The notes under the pieces were generated by a model. It was not told where the DNA came from, did not search any database, and saw nothing but the letters and a program-made list of their open reading frames with translations. A DNA stretch of 64,000 nucleotides, from positions 124,001 through 188,000 of the forward strand of contig NZ_KB900368.1 in NCBI RefSeq assembly GCF_000378725.1, written 5' to 3'. Made by a program: the position numbers and the translations under genes. The stretch's first letter is position 1. Every line of letters begins with the position of its first letter. Shown piece after piece: positions 50,366 through 55,880 of the stretch. The DNA comes from Peptoniphilus lacrimalis DSM 7455. Its GTDB lineage: Bacteria; Bacillota; Clostridia; Tissierellales; Peptoniphilaceae.

Positions 50366-50394
50366 TTGACATAAATAAACACTTGTTCTATAAT
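50366..50394 (+). promoter_or_regulatory. Strong promoter of the sigma/amidase operon
   Basis: A perfect TTGACA (50366-50371) and a perfect TATAAT (50389-50394) are separated by 17 bases, with the predicted start near 50401, exactly at a palindrome. Confidence 0.92.
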
Positions 50395-50400
50395 TCTACA

Positions 50401-50410
50401 TGAGGCCTCA
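50401..50410. promoter_or_regulatory. Palindrome at the predicted transcription start
   Basis: TGAGGCCTCA is a perfect 10-base palindrome at the predicted start site of the sigma-factor operon. It could be an operator or a 5' RNA hairpin end. Confidence 0.5.
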
Positions 50411-50425
50411 ATAAAAAGGAGGAAA

Positions 50426-50437
50426 TTATCGCGATAA
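50426..50437. promoter_or_regulatory. Palindrome between Shine-Dalgarno site and start codon
   Basis: TTATCGCGATAA is a perfect 12-base palindrome lying just after the strong AAGGAGG (50417-50423) and 10 bases before the sigma-gene ATG at 50448. The AAGGAGG is about 25 bases from this ATG, much farther than normal, so the start context is unusual. Confidence 0.55.
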
Positions 50438-50447
50438 ATTTTTAAAT

Positions 50448-51068
50448 ATGAAATTAGAAAGGAAAACAAAAGAAAAAGACAAAGAAAAACAAATACAAGA
50501 AGAAAAAGAGGACTACGAAAAATTAAACGAACAGGTTAAACTAGCAATACTCGGAGATGGAAAAGCAAAATTAAAAGTAGTAGAAATGCTAAATCCCCTA
50601 ATAGAATATTCAATAAAAAGGTACTGCCCCATCTATAAAGAATACCAAGACCTTTATCAAGATTCAGTTTTAATAGTCCTAAACTGTTTAGAAAACTTCG
50701 ACCAAAAAAGGTCCTTCCCCAAATATGTCAAGTCATATTTGAAATATTTCCTACTAGATACCTTCAGATATTTGTCACAAAAACCCGACATGGACTCAAA
50801 AGACAAAGAAGGAGAAGATATATTAGAAAAAATAGAAGATAATATAAACATCGAAAAAGAATATGAAAGAAAATTAGAAAACATTGCTCTTACAAAAGCC
50901 ATAAAAGAATTGCCACCAAGGCAAAGACAAATAATAGTCCTATACTATTTAGAAAATATGAGTATAAAAGAAATAGGTCTAAAAATGGCAATATCAAAAT
51001 GGACAGTAGTATCAGCCAAGAAAAAAGCATTAAAGAAACTAAGGAGTAAAATAAATGATAATAGATAA
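50448..51068 (+). CDS. Sigma-70 family factor, small alternative sigma
   Basis: The 206-residue protein has a charged N-terminus, a region 2 with NPLIEYSIKRYCPIYKEYQD-like start and LYQDSVLIVLNCLENFD, and a region 4 with LPPRQRQIIVLYYLENMSIKEIG and KWTVVSAKKKALKKL. Regions 1 and 3 are absent, so it is a compact alternative factor of the type linked to phage-like or toxin-release genes (SigO, UviA, TcdR). It overlaps the amidase gene by 14 bases. The Shine-Dalgarno site is abnormally far upstream. The target promoters are unknown. Confidence 0.85.
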   Translation: MKLERKTKEKDKEKQIQEEKEDYEKLNEQVKLAILGDGKAKLKVVEMLNPLIEYSIKRYCPIYKEYQDLYQDSVLIVLNCLENFDQKRSFPKYVKSYLKYFLLDTFRYLSQKPDMDSKDKEGEDILEKIEDNINIEKEYERKLENIALTKAIKELPPRQRQIIVLYYLENMSIKEIGLKMAISKWTVVSAKKKALKKLRSKINDNR

Positions 51069-51528
51069 AAGACTAATAAAATATAACTACCAAAACAGAC
51101 AAGGAAATCTCATAAAATATATAGTGGTTCATGACACAGCAAACACAAACATATCAGCCGATGCCATAAACCATTACAGATACTTTGCAGGAGGCAACAG
51201 AAAAGCATCAGCCCATTATTTTGTAGACGATAAAAGAATAGTAGAAATAATAGAAGACGCCTACGCATCATGGCACTGTGGAGATGGAAGAGGTAAATAT
51301 GGAATAACAAACAATAACTCAATAGGAGTAGAAATCTGCGTAAATTCAGACGGAAATTACAAAAAAGCCGTAGAAAATACCCTATCACTGGTAAGAGAAC
51401 TTATGAAAACATACAAGGTCCCCATAAAAAATGTAGTCAGACACTTTGACGCATCAAGAAAAATCTGCCCACGCTCCATGTCAGAAAATAATTGGGCAAA
51501 ATGGTGGGAATTTAAGGCAAAACTATAA
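51055..51528 (+). CDS. N-acetylmuramoyl-L-alanine amidase (amidase_2)
   Basis: The 157-residue protein has no signal peptide. It has IVVHDTANTNI (zinc His, about 23-33), SAHYFVDD, SWHCGDGRGKYG, NSIGVEICV, NVVRHFDASRKICP (second zinc His and Cys). It is a bare catalytic domain of the T7 lysozyme/PGRP type, like phage endolysins, without a cell-wall binding domain. Because it lacks an export signal it would need a holin-like exit or cell lysis. It is co-translated with the sigma-factor gene. Confidence 0.92.
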   Translation: MIIDKRLIKYNYQNRQGNLIKYIVVHDTANTNISADAINHYRYFAGGNRKASAHYFVDDKRIVEIIEDAYASWHCGDGRGKYGITNNNSIGVEICVNSDGNYKKAVENTLSLVRELMKTYKVPIKNVVRHFDASRKICPRSMSENNWAKWWEFKAKL

Positions 51529-51550
51529 AACCTTAAATACATATAAAACT

Positions 51551-51580
51551 GGGACTAAACAATAGTCCTTATTTTTTTTA
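51551..51580 (+). terminator. Terminator of the sigma/amidase operon
   Basis: GGACTA-AACAA-TAGTCC is followed by TTATTTTTTTTA, 23 bases after the amidase stop. Confidence 0.8.
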
Positions 51581-51588
51581 TTTTTTAA

Positions 51589-52109
51589 GGGACTGTCCCT
51601 TTCTTCCTTGACTTATTTTTTGTTTGGATTTTATTTTTTTAAGGGACTGTCCCTTTTTCTTCTCTTGATTTTGTTTTTCTTTATTTCGGGGGACTGTCCC
51701 TATTGGAACTGTCCCTTTTCTTCTCTTGATTTTGTTTTTCTTTAATTATTCCAGGGGAGTGTCCCTGTTAGGACTGTCCCTTTCTTCCTTGATTTTGTTT
51801 TTTTCTTCAATTTTTTCGGGGGACTGTCCCTGTTGGGACTGTCCCTTTTCTTCTCTTGATTTTGTTTTTCTTTATTTCGGGGGACTGTCCCTGCTGGGAC
51901 TGTCCCTTTTTCTTCTCTTGATTTTGTTTTTTCTTTAATTATTTCGGGGGAGTGTCCCTGTTGGGACTGTCCCTTTTCTTCTCCTGATTTTGTTTTTTTC
52001 TTTAATTATTCCGGGGGAGTGTCCCTGTTGGGACTGTCCCCTTTTCTTCTCTTGATTTTGTTTTTTTCTTTAATTATTCCGGGGGACTGTCCCTGTTGGG
52101 ACTGTCCCC
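51589..52109 (+). repeat. Tandem array of GGGACTGTCCC-containing units (REP-like)
   Basis: Units of 61-68 bases are repeated about seven times. Each unit has GGGGGACTGTCCCTGTTGG, a second GGGACTGTCCC, then TTTTCTTCTCTTGATTTTG and a T-rich spacer. Unit anchors (GGACTGTCCCT or GGAGTGTCCCT) lie at 51691, 51756, 51821, 51882, 51949, 52016 and 52084; single palindromes precede at 51589 and 51643. Neighbouring units differ by point changes and short T-run differences. The array lies directly downstream of the RAYT gene, whose product is expected to act on such palindromes. Confidence 0.9.
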
Positions 52110-52142
52110 CTCTTCGGGCTTGGCTTAAAAGGACAGATTCCC

Positions 52143-52724
52143 TTAGTGTTTTACACCATCACAATAAATATCCTTAGCCGAACAATTAAAGGGCAAGTTC
52201 AAATAATCTAAATACATAATTCTAGCCTTAGAAATATCAGCACTAAAAAAATTTAAAATATAATTAACATCAACAAAAGAATCACAATCACTAATATAAA
52301 ACCTATGAGAAGTAAACATATTCATATATAAATCAGAAAGACCAGCTTTTTTGGGATTCAGATGAATATACTTAACAAGTTCAGTAAGATAAATGTCATC
52401 ATTATATCCCTTAGATTTAAATCGTGATCCAAATACTCTGCCACTATGCTTGTATTTTTTATTGAAATAAAATGTATAAGATTGTTGAATAAACTTCATA
52501 ATTTTGCTGAGATCTTCCCTCTTTGCTTTCAATAAAATATGTATATGATTATCCATAATAGCAAAAGCAAACACCCTAATATTTAACTCATCCCTAGATA
52601 ATTTAATAAGATTAATATAATAATCCTTATCGCTTTTATCCAAAAAAATTTTTTCACGATTATTAGCCCTTGCAAAAACATGATAAATGTCTGTTTCAGA
52701 ATACTCTATAGCACTTGTTGGCAT
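52143..52724 (-). CDS. REP-associated tyrosine transposase (RAYT, Y1 family)
   Basis: The 193-residue protein has the HUH motif MDNHIHILL (H60 and H62), and IQQSYTFYFNKKY (probable nucleophile Y83), followed by GRVFGSRFKS and YIHLNPKKAGL. This is the TnpA_REP/RAYT branch of IS200/IS605-type Y1 transposases, which cleave and join single-stranded palindromic DNA. The ATG at 52722-52724 follows GAGGTG. Palindromes of one family flank it on both sides (52081-52109 and 52795-52822). A TATAAT at 52742-52747 may drive it, with a very short leader. Confidence 0.92.
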   Translation of the reverse strand: MPTSAIEYSETDIYHVFARANNREKIFLDKSDKDYYINLIKLSRDELNIRVFAFAIMDNHIHILLKAKREDLSKIMKFIQQSYTFYFNKKYKHSGRVFGSRFKSKGYNDDIYLTELVKYIHLNPKKAGLSDLYMNMFTSHRFYISDCDSFVDVNYILNFFSADISKARIMYLDYLNLPFNCSAKDIYCDGVKH

Positions 52725-52794
52725 CACATCACCTCTTTTAAATTATAACATAATAAAACTTTTCTTAATTTAATAATTTTTTTTTTAATTATTC

Positions 52795-52925
52795 GGGGGA
52801 CAGTCCTAAAGGACAGACCCCCTTTATTTATTTTTTGAAAAGTTATAAGGGACTGTCCCTGTTGGGACTGTCCCTTCTTCCTTGATTTTATTTTTTTAAA
52901 GGACTGTCCCTATTGGGACTGACCC
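52795..52925 (+). repeat. GGGACAGTCC palindromes upstream of the RAYT gene
   Basis: GGGGGACAGTCC-TAAA-GGACAGACCCCC (52795-52822) is a paired element facing the RAYT 5' side; GGGACTGTCCCTGTTGGGACTGTCCC follows at 52848-52874 and GGACTGTCCCTATTGGGACTG at 52900-52920. They match the array downstream of the RAYT gene. Confidence 0.85.
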
Positions 52926-52970
52926 TTTTCTTATAATTCCCTTTTGTTCCCAATATATAATGACAACATA

Positions 52971-52999
52971 TTGACAATACACGAATAAAACCCTATAAT
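52971..52999 (+). promoter_or_regulatory. Promoter of the toxin-antitoxin pair
   Basis: TTGACA (52971-52976) and TATAAT (52994-52999) are 17 bases apart. TGACAA words occur twice, 11 bases apart, around the -35 box and could be antitoxin-binding half-sites. Confidence 0.85.
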
Positions 53000-53020
53000 C
53001 AAAACAAAGGAGATGAGCCT

Positions 53021-53293
53021 ATGACAAGCACAAATTTGAACATAAGAACAGATAAAGAAATAAAAGAAAAAGCTGAAAAAATTTACTCAAGCCTCGGTTT
53101 AAATATGACAACTGCAATTAATATTTTTTTAAGAGCAAGTATCAGAAAAAACGGAATCCCCTTTGATTTAAAACTCAATGTCCCAAATGACGAAACTTTA
53201 AAAGCAATAAAAGAAGCAAGAAAAATTGCAAAAGATAAAAATGTTCAATCCTATGACAGTATAGAAGAATTGAGAAAAGCCCTTGAAATATAA
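53021..53293 (+). CDS. RelB/DinJ-family antitoxin
   Basis: The 90-residue protein starts with a ribbon-helix-helix segment LNIRTDKEIKEKAEKIYSSL and LNMTTAINIFLRASIR, typical of DinJ/RelB antitoxins, and ends with an acidic helix that wraps the toxin. It follows a good promoter and AAAGGAG. It overlaps the toxin gene by 11 bases, the usual layout. Confidence 0.92.
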   Translation: MTSTNLNIRTDKEIKEKAEKIYSSLGLNMTTAINIFLRASIRKNGIPFDLKLNVPNDETLKAIKEARKIAKDKNVQSYDSIEELRKALEI

Positions 53294-53561
53294 AATAAAA
53301 TACACTAATAGATTTAAAAAAGATTTAAAACTTCTCAAAAAGCAAGGAAAAGATATAAATAAACTATTTTATATAATTGAGAAAATTGCAAAGGGAGAAA
53401 CTCTTGAAGATAAATACAAAGACCATCTATTAAACGGAAACTATAAAAAAACAAGAGAATGTCATGTTGAATCAGATTTATTACTAATCTATGAAAAATA
53501 TGAAGATATTTTAGTTTTAACCTTGGTTAGAACTGGTTCACACTCAGATTTATTTAAATAA
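53283..53561 (+). CDS. YafQ-family mRNA interferase toxin
   Basis: The 92-residue protein has the RelE/YafQ fold and the YafQ active-site residues in DHLLNGNYKKTRECHVESDL (two His, Asp) and LVRTGSHSDLF (His, Phe). It cleaves mRNA on the ribosome. The start is a TTG at 53283 inside the antitoxin gene. A terminator follows. Confidence 0.92.
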   Translation: MKYKIKYTNRFKKDLKLLKKQGKDINKLFYIIEKIAKGETLEDKYKDHLLNGNYKKTRECHVESDLLLIYEKYEDILVLTLVRTGSHSDLFK

Positions 53562-53578
53562 ATATAATAAGTAAAAAA

Positions 53579-53612
53579 TTAAGCGTCTAAACCACTAGAT
53601 GCTTAATTTTTT
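53579..53612 (+). terminator. Terminator of the toxin-antitoxin operon
   Basis: TAAGCGTCTA pairs with TAGATGCTTA (one wobble) and is followed by ATTTTTTTG. Confidence 0.85.
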
Positions 53613-53629
53613 TGTTTCTTCTATTTAAT

Positions 53630-53680
53630 CGGGGGACAGTCCGAGTCGTAAAATTCAACAAACAGTCAGGGACTGTCCCT
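53630..53680 (+). repeat. Deleted copy of the palindrome-bounded element
   Basis: GGGGGACAGTCCGAGTCGTAAAATTCAACAA joins directly to GTCAGGGACTGTCCC. The left end matches the two full elements at 54518 and 59395; the middle is missing. Confidence 0.75.
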
Positions 53681-53775
53681 TTTCTTACCTTAGTCTTAAT
53701 TCCCTTAAATTTTTTCAAAAATTGAGTAACAACTTTTTCTTATTTTTCATATATATAATACAGGAGGTGAAAACA

Positions 53776-53997
53776 ATGGCAAAGGTCAATGTTTCAAGAA
53801 AATTAAAAACTAAGTTAAACGCAGGTTTGGGAAAGAATGGCAAAGAAAGCTATAAAACTATTTCCCTTGACAGACTAGAAGAAAATGTTTCAACAGAAAA
53901 TGCCTTAAAGGTTGGCGAGTTTATTGGTAAAATTGTCGACAAAAAGGTTAAGTCTGTAACTAAAGTTAGTGAAGAAGAAATCACAAGTGAACTATAA
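53776..53997 (+). CDS. DUF1659 protein
   Basis: The 73-residue protein starts MAKVNVSRKLKTKLNAGLGK and has YKTISLDRLEENVSTENALKVGEFIGK. This pattern is the DUF1659 family, small proteins of unknown role found near YvrJ and DUF2922 genes. The ATG at 53776 follows AGGAGGTG. It heads the DUF1659-DUF2922-YvrJ operon. No perfect sigma-A promoter is visible: a TATAAT near 53754 lies almost in the ribosome-binding site and lacks a -35 box. Confidence 0.87.
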   Translation: MAKVNVSRKLKTKLNAGLGKNGKESYKTISLDRLEENVSTENALKVGEFIGKIVDKKVKSVTKVSEEEITSEL

Positions 53998-54011
53998 GAA
54001 AGGAGAATTAA

Positions 54012-54224
54012 ATGAGTAAATCTTTAAGACTTGAATTTGAAGATCAAGAAGAAAACAAGGCGACTATAACCATAACTGACCCTAAAGATGGTTTAACTAA
54101 AGCGGATGCCAAAGAATTTGGAGATTTTTTAGTTAGCAATTCAATTGTTAGGGGCAAAAAAGCCAAATTAAATAAGTTTGATAAGGCTTTTATAGTCACT
54201 CGTACAGAAGTTGAATTAGTTTAA
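54012..54224 (+). CDS. DUF2922 protein
   Basis: The 70-residue protein contains LRLEFEDQEENKATITITDP and KDGLTKADAKEFGDF, as in DUF2922 proteins. Role is unknown. It lies 14 bases after the DUF1659 gene with an AGGAG site. It has no signal peptide. Its partners suggest it acts with the YvrJ membrane peptide. Confidence 0.87.
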   Translation: MSKSLRLEFEDQEENKATITITDPKDGLTKADAKEFGDFLVSNSIVRGKKAKLNKFDKAFIVTRTEVELV

Positions 54225-54234
54225 GGACTAAAAA

Positions 54235-54393
54235 ATGATGGATGAACTTTTACAAAATATTGCCAACATCGGTTTTCCAATAGCTTTGTCGGCATATCTT
54301 TTGGTAAGGCTTGAAAGCAGAATGGAGGAGCTTAAAACCTCCATAATTAATCTCACAAAAGCGGTGGAAGAATTTTCCATTAAAAGGGATTAA
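54235..54393 (+). CDS. YvrJ-family small membrane protein, holin-like
   Basis: The 52-residue frame reads MMDELLQNIANIGFPIALSA and continues with YLLVRLESRMEELKTSIINL. It has one transmembrane segment (about 10-25) and an amphipathic C-terminal helix. This is the YvrJ family; the RLESRMEEL-type helix after one membrane segment also recalls the BhlA/UviB holin-like proteins. In Bacillus subtilis yvrJ lies by the sigO-rsoA sigma genes. Weak AAGGA precedes it. A terminator ends the operon. It is too short for common gene-calling cut-offs. Confidence 0.88.
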   Translation: MMDELLQNIANIGFPIALSAYLLVRLESRMEELKTSIINLTKAVEEFSIKRD

Positions 54394-54410
54394 TTTTTTT
54401 ACATAATTTT

Positions 54411-54444
54411 GGACTGGCGAGGGTTTCTTTGCTAGTCTTTTTTT
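54411..54444 (+). terminator. Terminator of the DUF1659-DUF2922-YvrJ operon
   Basis: GACTGGC pairs with GCTAGTC (one wobble) and is followed by seven T. Confidence 0.85.
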
Positions 54445-54487
54445 GTTGCAGGAGAAAAGAAAAAAGGAAAGTAAAGAAAAAAGAAAA

Positions 54488-54753
54488 GGGACAGTCCCCG
54501 ATTGACTGTGTAATTTGAGGGGGCCTGTCCTTAGTCGTAAAATTCAACAATCAACCTTCGCTTCGCTTGGTTTCTTGTGAATTTCTGACATGAGACCTGC
54601 CACAAAATCAAAGATTTTGGGCTAGGGCTTCAAGGACTGTCCCCCGAATGTGAATGAATTAAAAAAGAAAAAAATTGAAAAAAAGGGAAAGTCTTTGATT
54701 AAAAAATTAAGAGATTAAGAAATTATTGGGACAGTCCCGACAGGGACAGTCCC
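54488..54753 (-). repeat. GGGACAGTCC repeats after YvrJ
   Basis: GGGACAGTCCCC occurs at 54488, GGGACAGTCCC at 54728 and 54743, and the ~128-bp palindrome-bounded element at 54518-54645 lies between. No gene is present between 54394 and 54796. The orientation is mainly the reverse of the array at 51.6-52.1 kb (A in the centre and not T). Confidence 0.85.
54518..54645 (-). mobile_element. Palindrome-bounded non-autonomous element, copy A
   Basis: The element runs from GGGGGCCTGTCC to GGACTGTCCCCC. Between them is TAGTCGTAAAATTCAACAA, then CTTCGCTTCGCTTGG, TGACATGAGACCTGCC, CAAAATCAAAGATTTTGG and GCTAGGGCTTCAA. The same order with very few changes is seen at 59395-59521. Its ends belong to the RAYT-associated palindrome family, so it is likely mobilised as a unit (MITE-like). 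Several internal inverted repeats would fold as single-stranded DNA. Confidence 0.82.
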
Positions 54754-54796
54754 AAGAGAAAAAAAGGTACAGTCAAAAGAAAAAGTCAAAAAGACA

Positions 54797-55642
54797 TTAA
54801 TCTGCTTCTTTCTTTATTTTTTCCCAAACACCTTTAAATAGTTTAGTGAAACTTATTTCAACTTCATTTCTTAATTTTACGTAATTTTTTATATATTCAT
54901 AATATGTATATTTCTTTACCTCATGAGTTTCTATTGACTCTATTTCAATTATCCCATCTTTTATAAGAATATCTTTATTTAATTCTTTTGAAAAAATATA
55001 TTCATTGTAGTTTTCTATTGCATCTAGTGCTTCTTTATCATCTTTATCATCTTTATCATCTTTATCATCTTTATCATCTTTATCATCTTTATCATCTTTA
55101 TCATCTTTATTATCTTTATCATATTCATGGTTAATGTTAAAAATAATCTTGTAATAAAGTTCTGTAACTTTATCCTTATCTTCTATATTTATTTTTCCAT
55201 TTCTTGTGAGCTTTAAGTATTCTGATAAATTATTTTGTAACCTATGTAGCCACTTTATTCTCTCTTTGGTGACAATTTCTTTAAAGGACTTTTTTCTGTT
55301 GATGTTAAAGCCTTCAAAAACTCCTGCTGCTGTTATAAGGGCAGGTAATATTATCTTAAGGTTAGAAAGAAAATAATAAGTCCTTGTGTCTTCTTTGCAA
55401 GAAAGGAAAAGATAAATAAGAAGCAAAAGGAGAACGAAAAAGCATAAAAAATGTCTTAGAATGAATAGGATGAATGAATATATTATGCAATTTTTGAATG
55501 AATTTTTTATCCAATTATTGACTTTTTCGGGGACAGTCCCAAAGGGACAGTCCCCTTTGTTTGGGTTGTCTTTGGTGTTTTCAGTGGGACAGTCCCCTTT
55601 GTTTGGGTTGTTTTTAGTGTTTTTAAAATTATCTTGACTCAT
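54797..55642 (-). CDS. Repeat-containing membrane protein of unknown function
   Basis: The 281-residue protein has two or three hydrophobic segments (about 50-80 and 95-115) and no signal peptide. Its first 35 residues contain NKGDCP twice, then GDCPFGTVPE, all encoded by GGGACAGTCC palindromes. Residues about 172-205 are a run of eight DDK units. The rest is soluble, acidic and helical. I recognise no domain. The ATG follows AGGAGATGC. The N-terminus has clearly been rewritten by repeat insertion, so the original start could be further downstream. Confidence 0.75.
   Translation of the reverse strand: MSQDNFKNTKNNPNKGDCPTENTKDNPNKGDCPFGTVPEKVNNWIKNSFKNCIIYSFILFILRHFLCFFVLLLLLIYLFLSCKEDTRTYYFLSNLKIILPALITAAGVFEGFNINRKKSFKEIVTKERIKWLHRLQNNLSEYLKLTRNGKINIEDKDKVTELYYKIIFNINHEYDKDNKDDKDDKDDKDDKDDKDDKDDKDDKEALDAIENYNEYIFSKELNKDILIKDGIIEIESIETHEVKKYTYYEYIKNYVKLRNEVEISFTKLFKGVWEKIKKEAD
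55032..55120 (-). repeat. 9-base tandem repeat coding for DDK units
   Basis: TCATCTTTA repeats about nine times on the plus strand, coding DDK on the minus strand. Unit length is a multiple of three, so copy changes would alter protein length without breaking the frame. Confidence 0.9.
55529..55615 (-). repeat. Palindromes inside a coding sequence
   Basis: GGGGACAGTCCCAAAGGGACAGTCCCC (55529-55555, paired) and GGGACAGTCCCC (55586-55597), each followed by TTTGTTTGGGTTGT, lie in the start of the preceding gene and are translated as GDCP-containing peptides. Confidence 0.88.
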
Positions 55643-55735
55643 GTTAGCATCTCCTTAAGCTAATTATAGCAAATAAAGTTTTTGTGAGAAAGAAAAAAGG
55701 GAAAAAGAAAAGTAAAGAAAAAAAAGTTAAAAAAA

Positions 55736-55880
55736 GGGACAGTCCAAAAAAATCAAAAGAAATGGGACAGTCCTCAATTGACTGCAAGAAGAAATCAAAG
55801 AAAAGGGACAGTCCCAAAAGGGACAGTCCCTGATAATAGTCCTCGTTTGATGTGGGCTAGGGCTTCAAGGGTCAGTCCCT
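55736..55880 (-). repeat. Dispersed GGGACAGTCC palindromes and element fragment
   Basis: Four palindrome copies and a right-end fragment (GGGCTAGGGCTTCAA, then GGGTCAGTCCCTG) lie here. The fragment matches the right end of the elements at 54518 and 59395. Confidence 0.8.

Follow-up and report, generated by a model that had tools for sequence, protein, structure and literature searches.

Introduction

UviA, the small sigma factor known from Clostridium perfringens pIP404, has a link to ultraviolet light and the SOS response, and the PBSX element carries an SOS-induced lysis module made up of XhlA, XhlB and XlyA. Bcn5-type bacteriocin loci join UviA (sigma) with UviB (a BhlA holin) and an amidase, as given in the available part of PMC9527704. 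TcdR-type factors are described in the corresponding parts of PMC10467148, PMC4885068 and PMC10223161. In Bacillus subtilis, yvrJ is transcribed by SigO-RsoA, to go by the excerpt of PMC8103513. This report concerns a five-gene locus of Peptoniphilus lacrimalis DSM 7455 that resembles these systems. It encodes an alternative sigma factor, an amidase, a DUF1659 protein, a DUF2922 protein and YvrJ (the last three are called the trio below), and it lies on a stretch of 64,000 nucleotides of contig NZ_KB900368.1 (positions 124,001 to 188,000), here called the window.

An earlier note on this DNA, made from the sequence alone, had proposed a possible sigma-controlled lysis or release cassette. Comparison with its relatives indicates that the five genes form a real, conserved and little-studied cassette, with a predicted sigma-controlled holin-amidase make-up and a putative lysis function. 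Relatives of the cassette occur in many other Clostridia. A full-text literature search on YvrJ, DUF2922 and DUF1659 gave nothing on their function, judged by what is listed. In the portions of papers available, yvrJ is merely named, as a SigO-RsoA target (PMC8103513) and in a down-regulated operon.

Conservation of the Cassette

All five genes are on the + strand of the window. The gene for the sigma-70 family sigma factor (50448..51068; 206 aa, regions 2 and 4 by Pfam) overlaps by 14 nt that of the N-acetylmuramoyl-L-alanine amidase (51055..51528; 157 aa; PF01510, E-value (E) 1e-25). The trio follows 2.3 kb beyond the amidase gene, with DUF1659 (53776..53997; 73 aa; PF07872, E 1.6e-11), DUF2922 (54012..54224; 70 aa; PF11148, E 1.2e-15; phrog_21372, E 2.6e-6) and the holin-like YvrJ (54235..54393; 52 aa; PF12841, E 1.5e-15; the holin family phrog_4898, E 1.6e-4), the only YvrJ gene of this genome. 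The genes that the earlier note had named, a sigma gene overlapping an amidase gene and DUF1659-DUF2922-YvrJ in the same orientation, are thus all present with clear Pfam matches.

Profiles built from the window proteins were used to search gene neighbourhoods. Of the 60 examined, 59 surround YvrJ matches (from 59 of the 70 YvrJ-positive genomes, the window's own among the 70, with 101 genomes searched) and one is the separate sigma-amidase place of genome G057. Ten relatives within the genus bear the cassette, and eight of them (L092, L093, L094, L096, L098-L101) have it as a compact sigma-amidase-DUF1659-DUF2922-YvrJ operon; it is split in L095 and L097. Three of the 13 genus relatives (G001, G010, G013) have neither sigma gene nor amidase nor YvrJ. 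Sigma factor and YvrJ also go together in 42 of the 101 genomes, with both in 29, sigma only in 3, YvrJ only in 1 and neither in 9 (P 4.5e-6). Because of the compact order in eight of ten relatives, the joint absence and this co-occurrence, the window layout is taken to be an interrupted version of a conserved operon. The same compact order is found in other genera of the window's family. The earlier note had supposed that a repeat array with a RAYT gene and a toxin-antitoxin pair may have split a once compact locus, and had asked whether homologous loci would show the two halves to be independent. The relatives bear out the split, being contiguous without the insertion in eight of ten cases, and with three genus members devoid of both halves, the halves are not independent.

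The Sigma Gene and Its LexA-Type Box

The sigma factor matches Sigma70_r4 (PF04545, E 5.9e-15) and Sigma70_r2 (PF04542, E 1.3e-5), and its best general model is TIGR02937 (E 5.8e-26). The promoter of the sigma-amidase pair (50366..50394, + strand) reads as consensus sigma-A, TTGACA-17-TATAAT, with the -35 box at 50366-50371 and the -10 box at 50389-50394. Position 50366, where the earlier note had begun the locus, is the first base of the -35 box. The end of the 17-bp spacer is filled by a LexA-type box, AAACACTTGTTC (50377-50388, + strand). For comparison, B. subtilis has GAACN4GTTC as its SOS box, and the available part of PMC4234289 works with GAACN4GTTT and GTTC boxes for the LexA of C. 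difficile.

Each of the 36 genomes searched for LexA has a match to its DNA-binding domain, and 28 of 30 lexA loci, L164 of the window's own genome among them, have RAACN4GTTY within 250 bp upstream. Of 25 amidase-linked sigma genes, 17 show the same pattern in the 220 bp before the start, as against 18 of 282 control genes from the same loci (P 8.8e-13); L094, cut by a contig end, is outside this count. For other cassette-type sigma genes the figure is 8 of 20 against the same controls (P 6.4e-5). When the stretch was placed less well, the figures were 15 of 26 amidase-linked, 8 of 22 other and 16 of 280 control genes, with 1.6% in shuffles. The exact TTGACA-box-TATAAT geometry is present at 6 of the 26 amidase-linked loci, the window included. 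By eye, the box in L109, L119 and L131 belongs to a divergent promoter. The sigma-amidase promoter thus carries a predicted LexA operator, and the sigma gene is probably under SOS control; this probable control is an addition to the earlier note. In a tree of 48 sigma proteins the amidase-linked rows (those with an amidase match anywhere in the locus) cluster, and they do not go back to one event, with 6 changes on the best tree and at least 3 forced.

The leaders of sigma genes outside Peptoniphilus (L136, L132, L147, L330, L314, L315, L320 and others) have two short palindromes of varying sequence. Counts were made on 26 leaders picked by eye for showing the pattern, so they do not describe a blind sample: a 6-nt palindrome stands near the likely transcript start in 25 of the 26, compared with 25% of shuffles, and 17 of the 26 have a hairpin whose 3' arm is able to pair with the Shine-Dalgarno sequence, compared with 3.2 in shuffles (largest 9). 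This hairpin looks like an anti-Shine-Dalgarno translational RNA switch. The sigma leader of the window (50400-50448) has TGAGGCCTCA before GGAGG and TTATCGCGATAA between GGAGG and ATG, an unusual gap of 25 nt. A conserved RNA structure in this leader is not significant, since it folds no better than its shuffles (z 0.61). Rfam gave no match at gathering score over the sigma or DUF genes of the window and nine loci.

Promoter of the DUF1659 Operon

A second promoter, GYAAC-N15-CTATRTA, is common to many loci upstream of DUF1659, just before the ribosome site. A relaxed form is in place at 24 of 61 loci (the window is not among them), versus 17 occurrences elsewhere in 1.24 Mb of strand; since the motif was derived from the loci tested, the contrast with other places, rather than the motif itself, is the test. 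The perfect form, GYAACTTTN12CTATRTA, is found in 12 of 17 genomes, each time at DUF1659, with one extra site (in G003). A perfect match is lacking in the window's own genome, in G058 and in the three genomes without the cassette. In L095 and L128 the motif is kept though the sigma gene is not in front. The window has a degenerate copy at the orthologous place (53729..53755, + strand), with two mismatches to GYAACTTT-N12-CTATRTA, and this is the window's only match. The extra perfect site of G003 (L217:3297-3323) lies before a reading frame of <70 aa, 1.2 kb past a longer amidase gene.

Where the earlier note had allowed for a DUF operon driven by sigma-A, the operon has a conserved promoter of its own that is not sigma-A-like. 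It had also suggested a genome search for a promoter shared with other sigma-dependent genes. The motif is conserved at DUF1659, and a wider regulon in the window's own genome was not supported: a loose pattern gave 5 matches against 6 for the reversed control, and a strict pattern gave one one-mismatch site elsewhere. The conserved DUF1659 promoter is likely the target of the cassette sigma factor. A dedicated sigma factor with essentially one target would fit the genus best.

Amidase and YvrJ

The N-terminus of the amidase is not hydrophobic (the highest Kyte-Doolittle mean over 19 residues is 0.38), hydropathy shows no export signal, and no second domain passed the Pfam cut-off in its 157 residues. 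Hydropathy and Pfam scan thus agree with the earlier description of a lone catalytic domain of endolysin type that lacks a signal peptide and a wall-binding domain. It matches the phage lysis family phrog_3088 (E 1.6e-47). The closest solved chain is XlyA (3hmb, E 1.2e-27), presumably the lysin of the PBSX element, and H26, H130 and C138 align with the H, H and C that we take to be the zinc ligands of XlyA. Cassette amidases are mostly 156-159 aa long; most other copies among those listed lie in longer reading frames.

In YvrJ a single hydrophobic helix precedes a charged, amphipathic C-terminal part, whose moment is reached by 2.6% of shuffles. All four YvrJ proteins scanned match a holin-labelled PHROG family (E 1.6e-4 to 5.5e-7). 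In Pfam YvrJ matches PF12841 and no other family at E up to 1. The resemblance to BhlA/UviB that the earlier note had seen is limited to size and topology; profile-profile comparison gave no support for YvrJ as a homologue of that family (PF10960; hhalign probability 8.8%). BhlA is itself rare here, in 7 of 149 genomes. The putative holin-like function of YvrJ is favoured by sequence and context, the latter being lysin neighbours and phage holins in its slot at three loci. YvrJ is supported as a putative small holin, for which its replacement and its lysin neighbours are stronger evidence than its sequence.

Distribution in the Phylum and on Plasmids

A phylum sample of 60 loci from 57 genomes was hand-picked among the matches listed, mostly one per family. 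DUF1659 and DUF2922 are adjacent in 59 of the 60, and YvrJ comes next in 43. Among the 16 loci without a YvrJ match, three have a phage-type holin in the YvrJ slot: L270 (PF05105, E 9e-40), L268 (PF05105, E 2.7e-10) and L222 (phrog_13712, E 1.6e-10). The slot in L250 and L239 holds short reading frames with, by eye, a coiled coil and a membrane helix and with no family match; the remaining YvrJ-less loci have ComK-like genes or nothing clear by eye. A draw of 398 phylum genomes included 194 with DUF2922, mostly as a single copy. Five genomes (G280, G304, G353, G444 and G484) have 4 to 8 copies each. DUF1659 and DUF2922 were not supported as detectable paralogues (probability 8.5%), although single members cross-match weakly. 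A search for solved-structure relatives of DUF2922 and DUF1659 gave chance-level matches only.

The neighbours of the trio vary. Outside the window's family the sigma-amidase pair is inconstant, the trio being found also beside just one of these genes or without either. A sigma gene is directly 5' of the trio in 32 of 60 order-set loci, in 40 of the 80 loci that the named scan kept out of 353 relatives, and in 4 of 60 phylum loci. Sigma overlaps YvrJ, with no DUF1659 or DUF2922 detected, in L301, L312 and L351. An Amidase_2-type gene lies within 500 bp 3' of YvrJ in 10 of 60 phylum loci; in the window's family the amidase sits before DUF1659 instead (17 of 60 order-set loci). In L236 amidase genes adjoin its DUF pairs; YvrJ is followed by an Amidase_3 gene in L251 and, after 7 bp, by a peptidase M15 gene in L255.

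After the trio a ComK-like gene stands in 15 of the 60 phylum loci, in 29 of the 80 named loci and in 11 of the 60 loci of the order set. Among the 18 members aligned there are 6 with a match to Pfam ComK at E ≤0.1, one of them above the cut-off (E 2.6e-5). The gene is present in 9 of the 24 genomes given to the search and absent from the window's own genome and from the six genus members tested. Some thermophiles (Thermovorax, Fervidicola and two uncultured relatives) have the genes for YvrJ, the amidase and the ComK-like protein next to one another in that order. This phylum-wide core, often with a ComK-like gene and without an amidase, goes beyond the earlier note. Two loci have tandem ComK-like genes after YvrJ (L342:4322-5556 and L346:4320-5552).

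YvrJ relatives occur in 83 plasmid records, five of which were opened. A Paenibacillus xylanexedens plasmid has sigma, YvrJ and lysozyme in a row, a layout that the sigma-YvrJ overlaps of L301, L312 and L351 resemble. Two Paraclostridium bifermentans plasmids encode DUF1659-DUF2922-YvrJ and, on the opposite strand at a distance of 1.5-2 kb, an amidase. The plasmid regions of B. subtilis and Priestia have YvrJ and no annotated lysin.

Proposed Mechanism and Alternatives

We regard the five genes, with moderate confidence, as one functional unit, an SOS-inducible release cassette. LexA in the promoter spacer would repress sigma and amidase until DNA damage freed the promoter, as suggested by the presence and position of the box and by its likeness to those upstream of lexA. 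Sigma factor and amidase would then be made together, and the amidase, to judge from its sequence, would stay inside for want of an export signal. The sigma factor would next drive GYAAC-N15-CTATRTA of DUF1659-DUF2922-YvrJ, apparently its only strong target in the genus given the conservation and near-uniqueness of that promoter. YvrJ may accumulate in the membrane and permeabilise it as a small holin, so that the amidase reaches the wall; holin replacement and the lysins that follow YvrJ elsewhere point this way. The cell, or part of the population, would open and its contents would be released. DUF1659 and DUF2922 probably act with the membrane step, in timing or assembly, which is a guess. 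With lysin and sigma made first and the holin second, lysis would be delayed.

Several observations weigh against this proposal. RAACN4GTTY is absent from 8 of the 25 amidase-linked sigma genes (L098, of the same genus, L111, L113, L115, L118, L121, L122 and L123), and its count in the window alone is at chance (4 versus 5.1 expected), so that the argument for the box rests on position and conservation. The sigma copy in the window may be weakened, because its gap between GGAGG and ATG is unusually long. The DUF1659 promoter was read off the same loci as were tested, in the motif counts and the genome counts alike; at ≤1 mismatch its pattern has 38 sites versus 22 for the reversed control, so only perfect matches stand out. 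The window's own match is at chance (1 versus 1.29 expected), and at DUF1659 its genome lacks any site with ≤1 mismatch. YvrJ is not detectably BhlA-homologous. For 47 of the 60 phylum loci no lysin turned up next to the trio, with part of the downstream genes scanned against Pfam, and a clear lysis operon was not seen in 3 of the 5 opened YvrJ plasmids, two of them the regions without an annotated lysin. The scanned neighbours included no recognised cargo gene, bacteriocin or toxin; a search dedicated to bacteriocins was not made.

That the two halves are merely unrelated neighbours is hardly credible: they are 2.3 kb apart in the window and apart also in L095 and L097, but the compact operon of the other genus relatives and the joint loss of the genes have already refuted it by conserved contiguity. 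It is also very improbable that the cassette is the remnant of a prophage lysis module. The closeness of the amidase to XlyA, the phage-type holins in the YvrJ slot of some loci, and an upstream gene in L257 and L258 that resembles, by eye, a mobile-element protein would suit such an origin. Against these stand a gene order that is shared by many families, a conserved promoter, and the phage collections themselves. DUF2922 was unmatched in 50,697 phage records, and YvrJ had two weak phage records (E 0.2). A pattern scan of 2.9 million viral contigs turned up YvrJ relatives in 5, and the 4-kb flanks of these did not contain the trio. On these searches a phage origin was rejected. No phage structural or replication genes were found among nine window proteins scanned, the rest of the 64 kb being outside the scan; the earlier statement that phage structural genes are absent is upheld for those nine.

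Two further alternatives concern the use of the cassette. YvrJ and the DUF proteins could be a membrane stress or protein-export device without lysis, the amidase trimming the wall locally, as proposed for TcdE-type secretion. This is unlikely, though it accounts for the many phylum loci (47 of 60) where no lysin was found beside the trio, and for the ComK-like gene that comes after the trio in 15 of 60 (five times behind an amidase). Holin and endolysin pairs are described with non-lytic holin-dependent release in the available part of PMC9527704, and the excerpt of PMC8103513 has yvrJ transcribed by SigO-RsoA in B. subtilis. The overlap of amidase and regulator genes in the window lineage and the true phage holins that fill the slot elsewhere speak against it. 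Defence by altruistic death, in which the cassette would lyse damaged or phage-infected cells before new phage are ready, appears distinctly improbable. SOS-type control, the toxin-antitoxin pair inside the window copy and RelB-type matches near the cassette in L098, L100 and L101 would agree with it, but the RelB position is not constant and YafQ is found in the window only.

Beyond the SOS-inducible release cassette itself, a broader proposal is offered tentatively and is rather doubtful: DUF1659-DUF2922-holin would be the core of a chromosomal, non-phage programmed release in Clostridia, which some half of the phylum genomes sampled would have retained, with lineage-specific controls and lysins. 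Its possible controls would be a dedicated sigma factor, LexA, the ComK-like regulator and perhaps an anti-Shine-Dalgarno RNA switch. If this broader proposal were true, self-lysis would be tied to DNA damage or competence-like states, and so would have a link to DNA exchange between sister cells.

The Insertion and Neighbouring Genes

Between the halves of the window copy lie an array of GGGACTGTCCC repeats (51589..52108, no strand assigned), a RAYT or Y1 transposase-like gene (52146..52727, - strand; PF01797, Y1_Tnp, E 2.5e-13), and a RelB antitoxin and YafQ toxin pair (53021..53561, + strand; PF04221, E 8.5e-15, and PF15738, E 2.3e-33). The palindromic GGGACTGTCCC repeats have 60 matches in the whole window (at most 1 mismatch, both strands) versus 0.11 expected, and at 51589-55879 they crowd around the RAYT gene. 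A 281-aa protein encoded at 54797-55642 (- strand) carries a stretch of Asp-Asp-Lys repeats and matches no Pfam family above the cut-off. The genes just 5' of the cassette resemble, by eye, Era, cytidine deaminase, YbeY and PhoH.

Comparison with Known Systems

If the release reading is true, anaerobes of the human microbiota would have a built-in, phage-free way of releasing DNA and protein after antibiotic or oxidative stress. Three protein families of no known role would gain a testable job, and the sigma-holin logic of UviA-UviB and TcdR-TcdE would be one case of a wider chromosomal theme.

The likeness to PBSX lies in the amidase, whose catalytic domain is closest to XlyA among solved chains. 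Unlike the XhlA-XhlB-XlyA module, the cassette has no phage genes, no wall-binding domain and another holin. Type 10 secretion is similar in that the bacterium itself uses a holin and a lysin for release, as far as the available part of PMC10847048 describes it; the cassette differs in being Gram-positive and sigma-driven and in having no recognised cargo. With SigO-RsoA, in the partial account available, the cassette shares a dedicated sigma factor for yvrJ. In contrast to that system, its sigma factor has regions 2 and 4 in one polypeptide, amidase, DUF1659 and DUF2922 are linked to it, and its control is probably of the SOS type.

In TcdR-TcdE of the C. difficile pathogenicity locus, too, a sigma factor is paired with a holin, to go by the excerpts at hand, and two relatives of the cassette have a PF05105-type holin in the YvrJ slot. 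The cassette differs by its amidase, by a LexA-type box and a promoter of its own (a two-stage control) and by the absence of recognised toxin genes. TcdE presumably belongs to the PF05105 family. The nearest likeness is to UviA-UviB with its endolysin, where, in the source as available, a small sigma factor, a small one-helix holin-like protein and an N-acetylmuramoyl-L-alanine amidase are likewise found together. In contrast to that pIP404 system, the cassette is chromosomal, conserved over the phylum and provided with DUF1659 and DUF2922; YvrJ is of a different holin family, and no bacteriocin gene was recognised beside the cassette, so it is not counted as a member of the UviA-UviB group. 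By analogy, the cassette most likely works like UviA-UviB.

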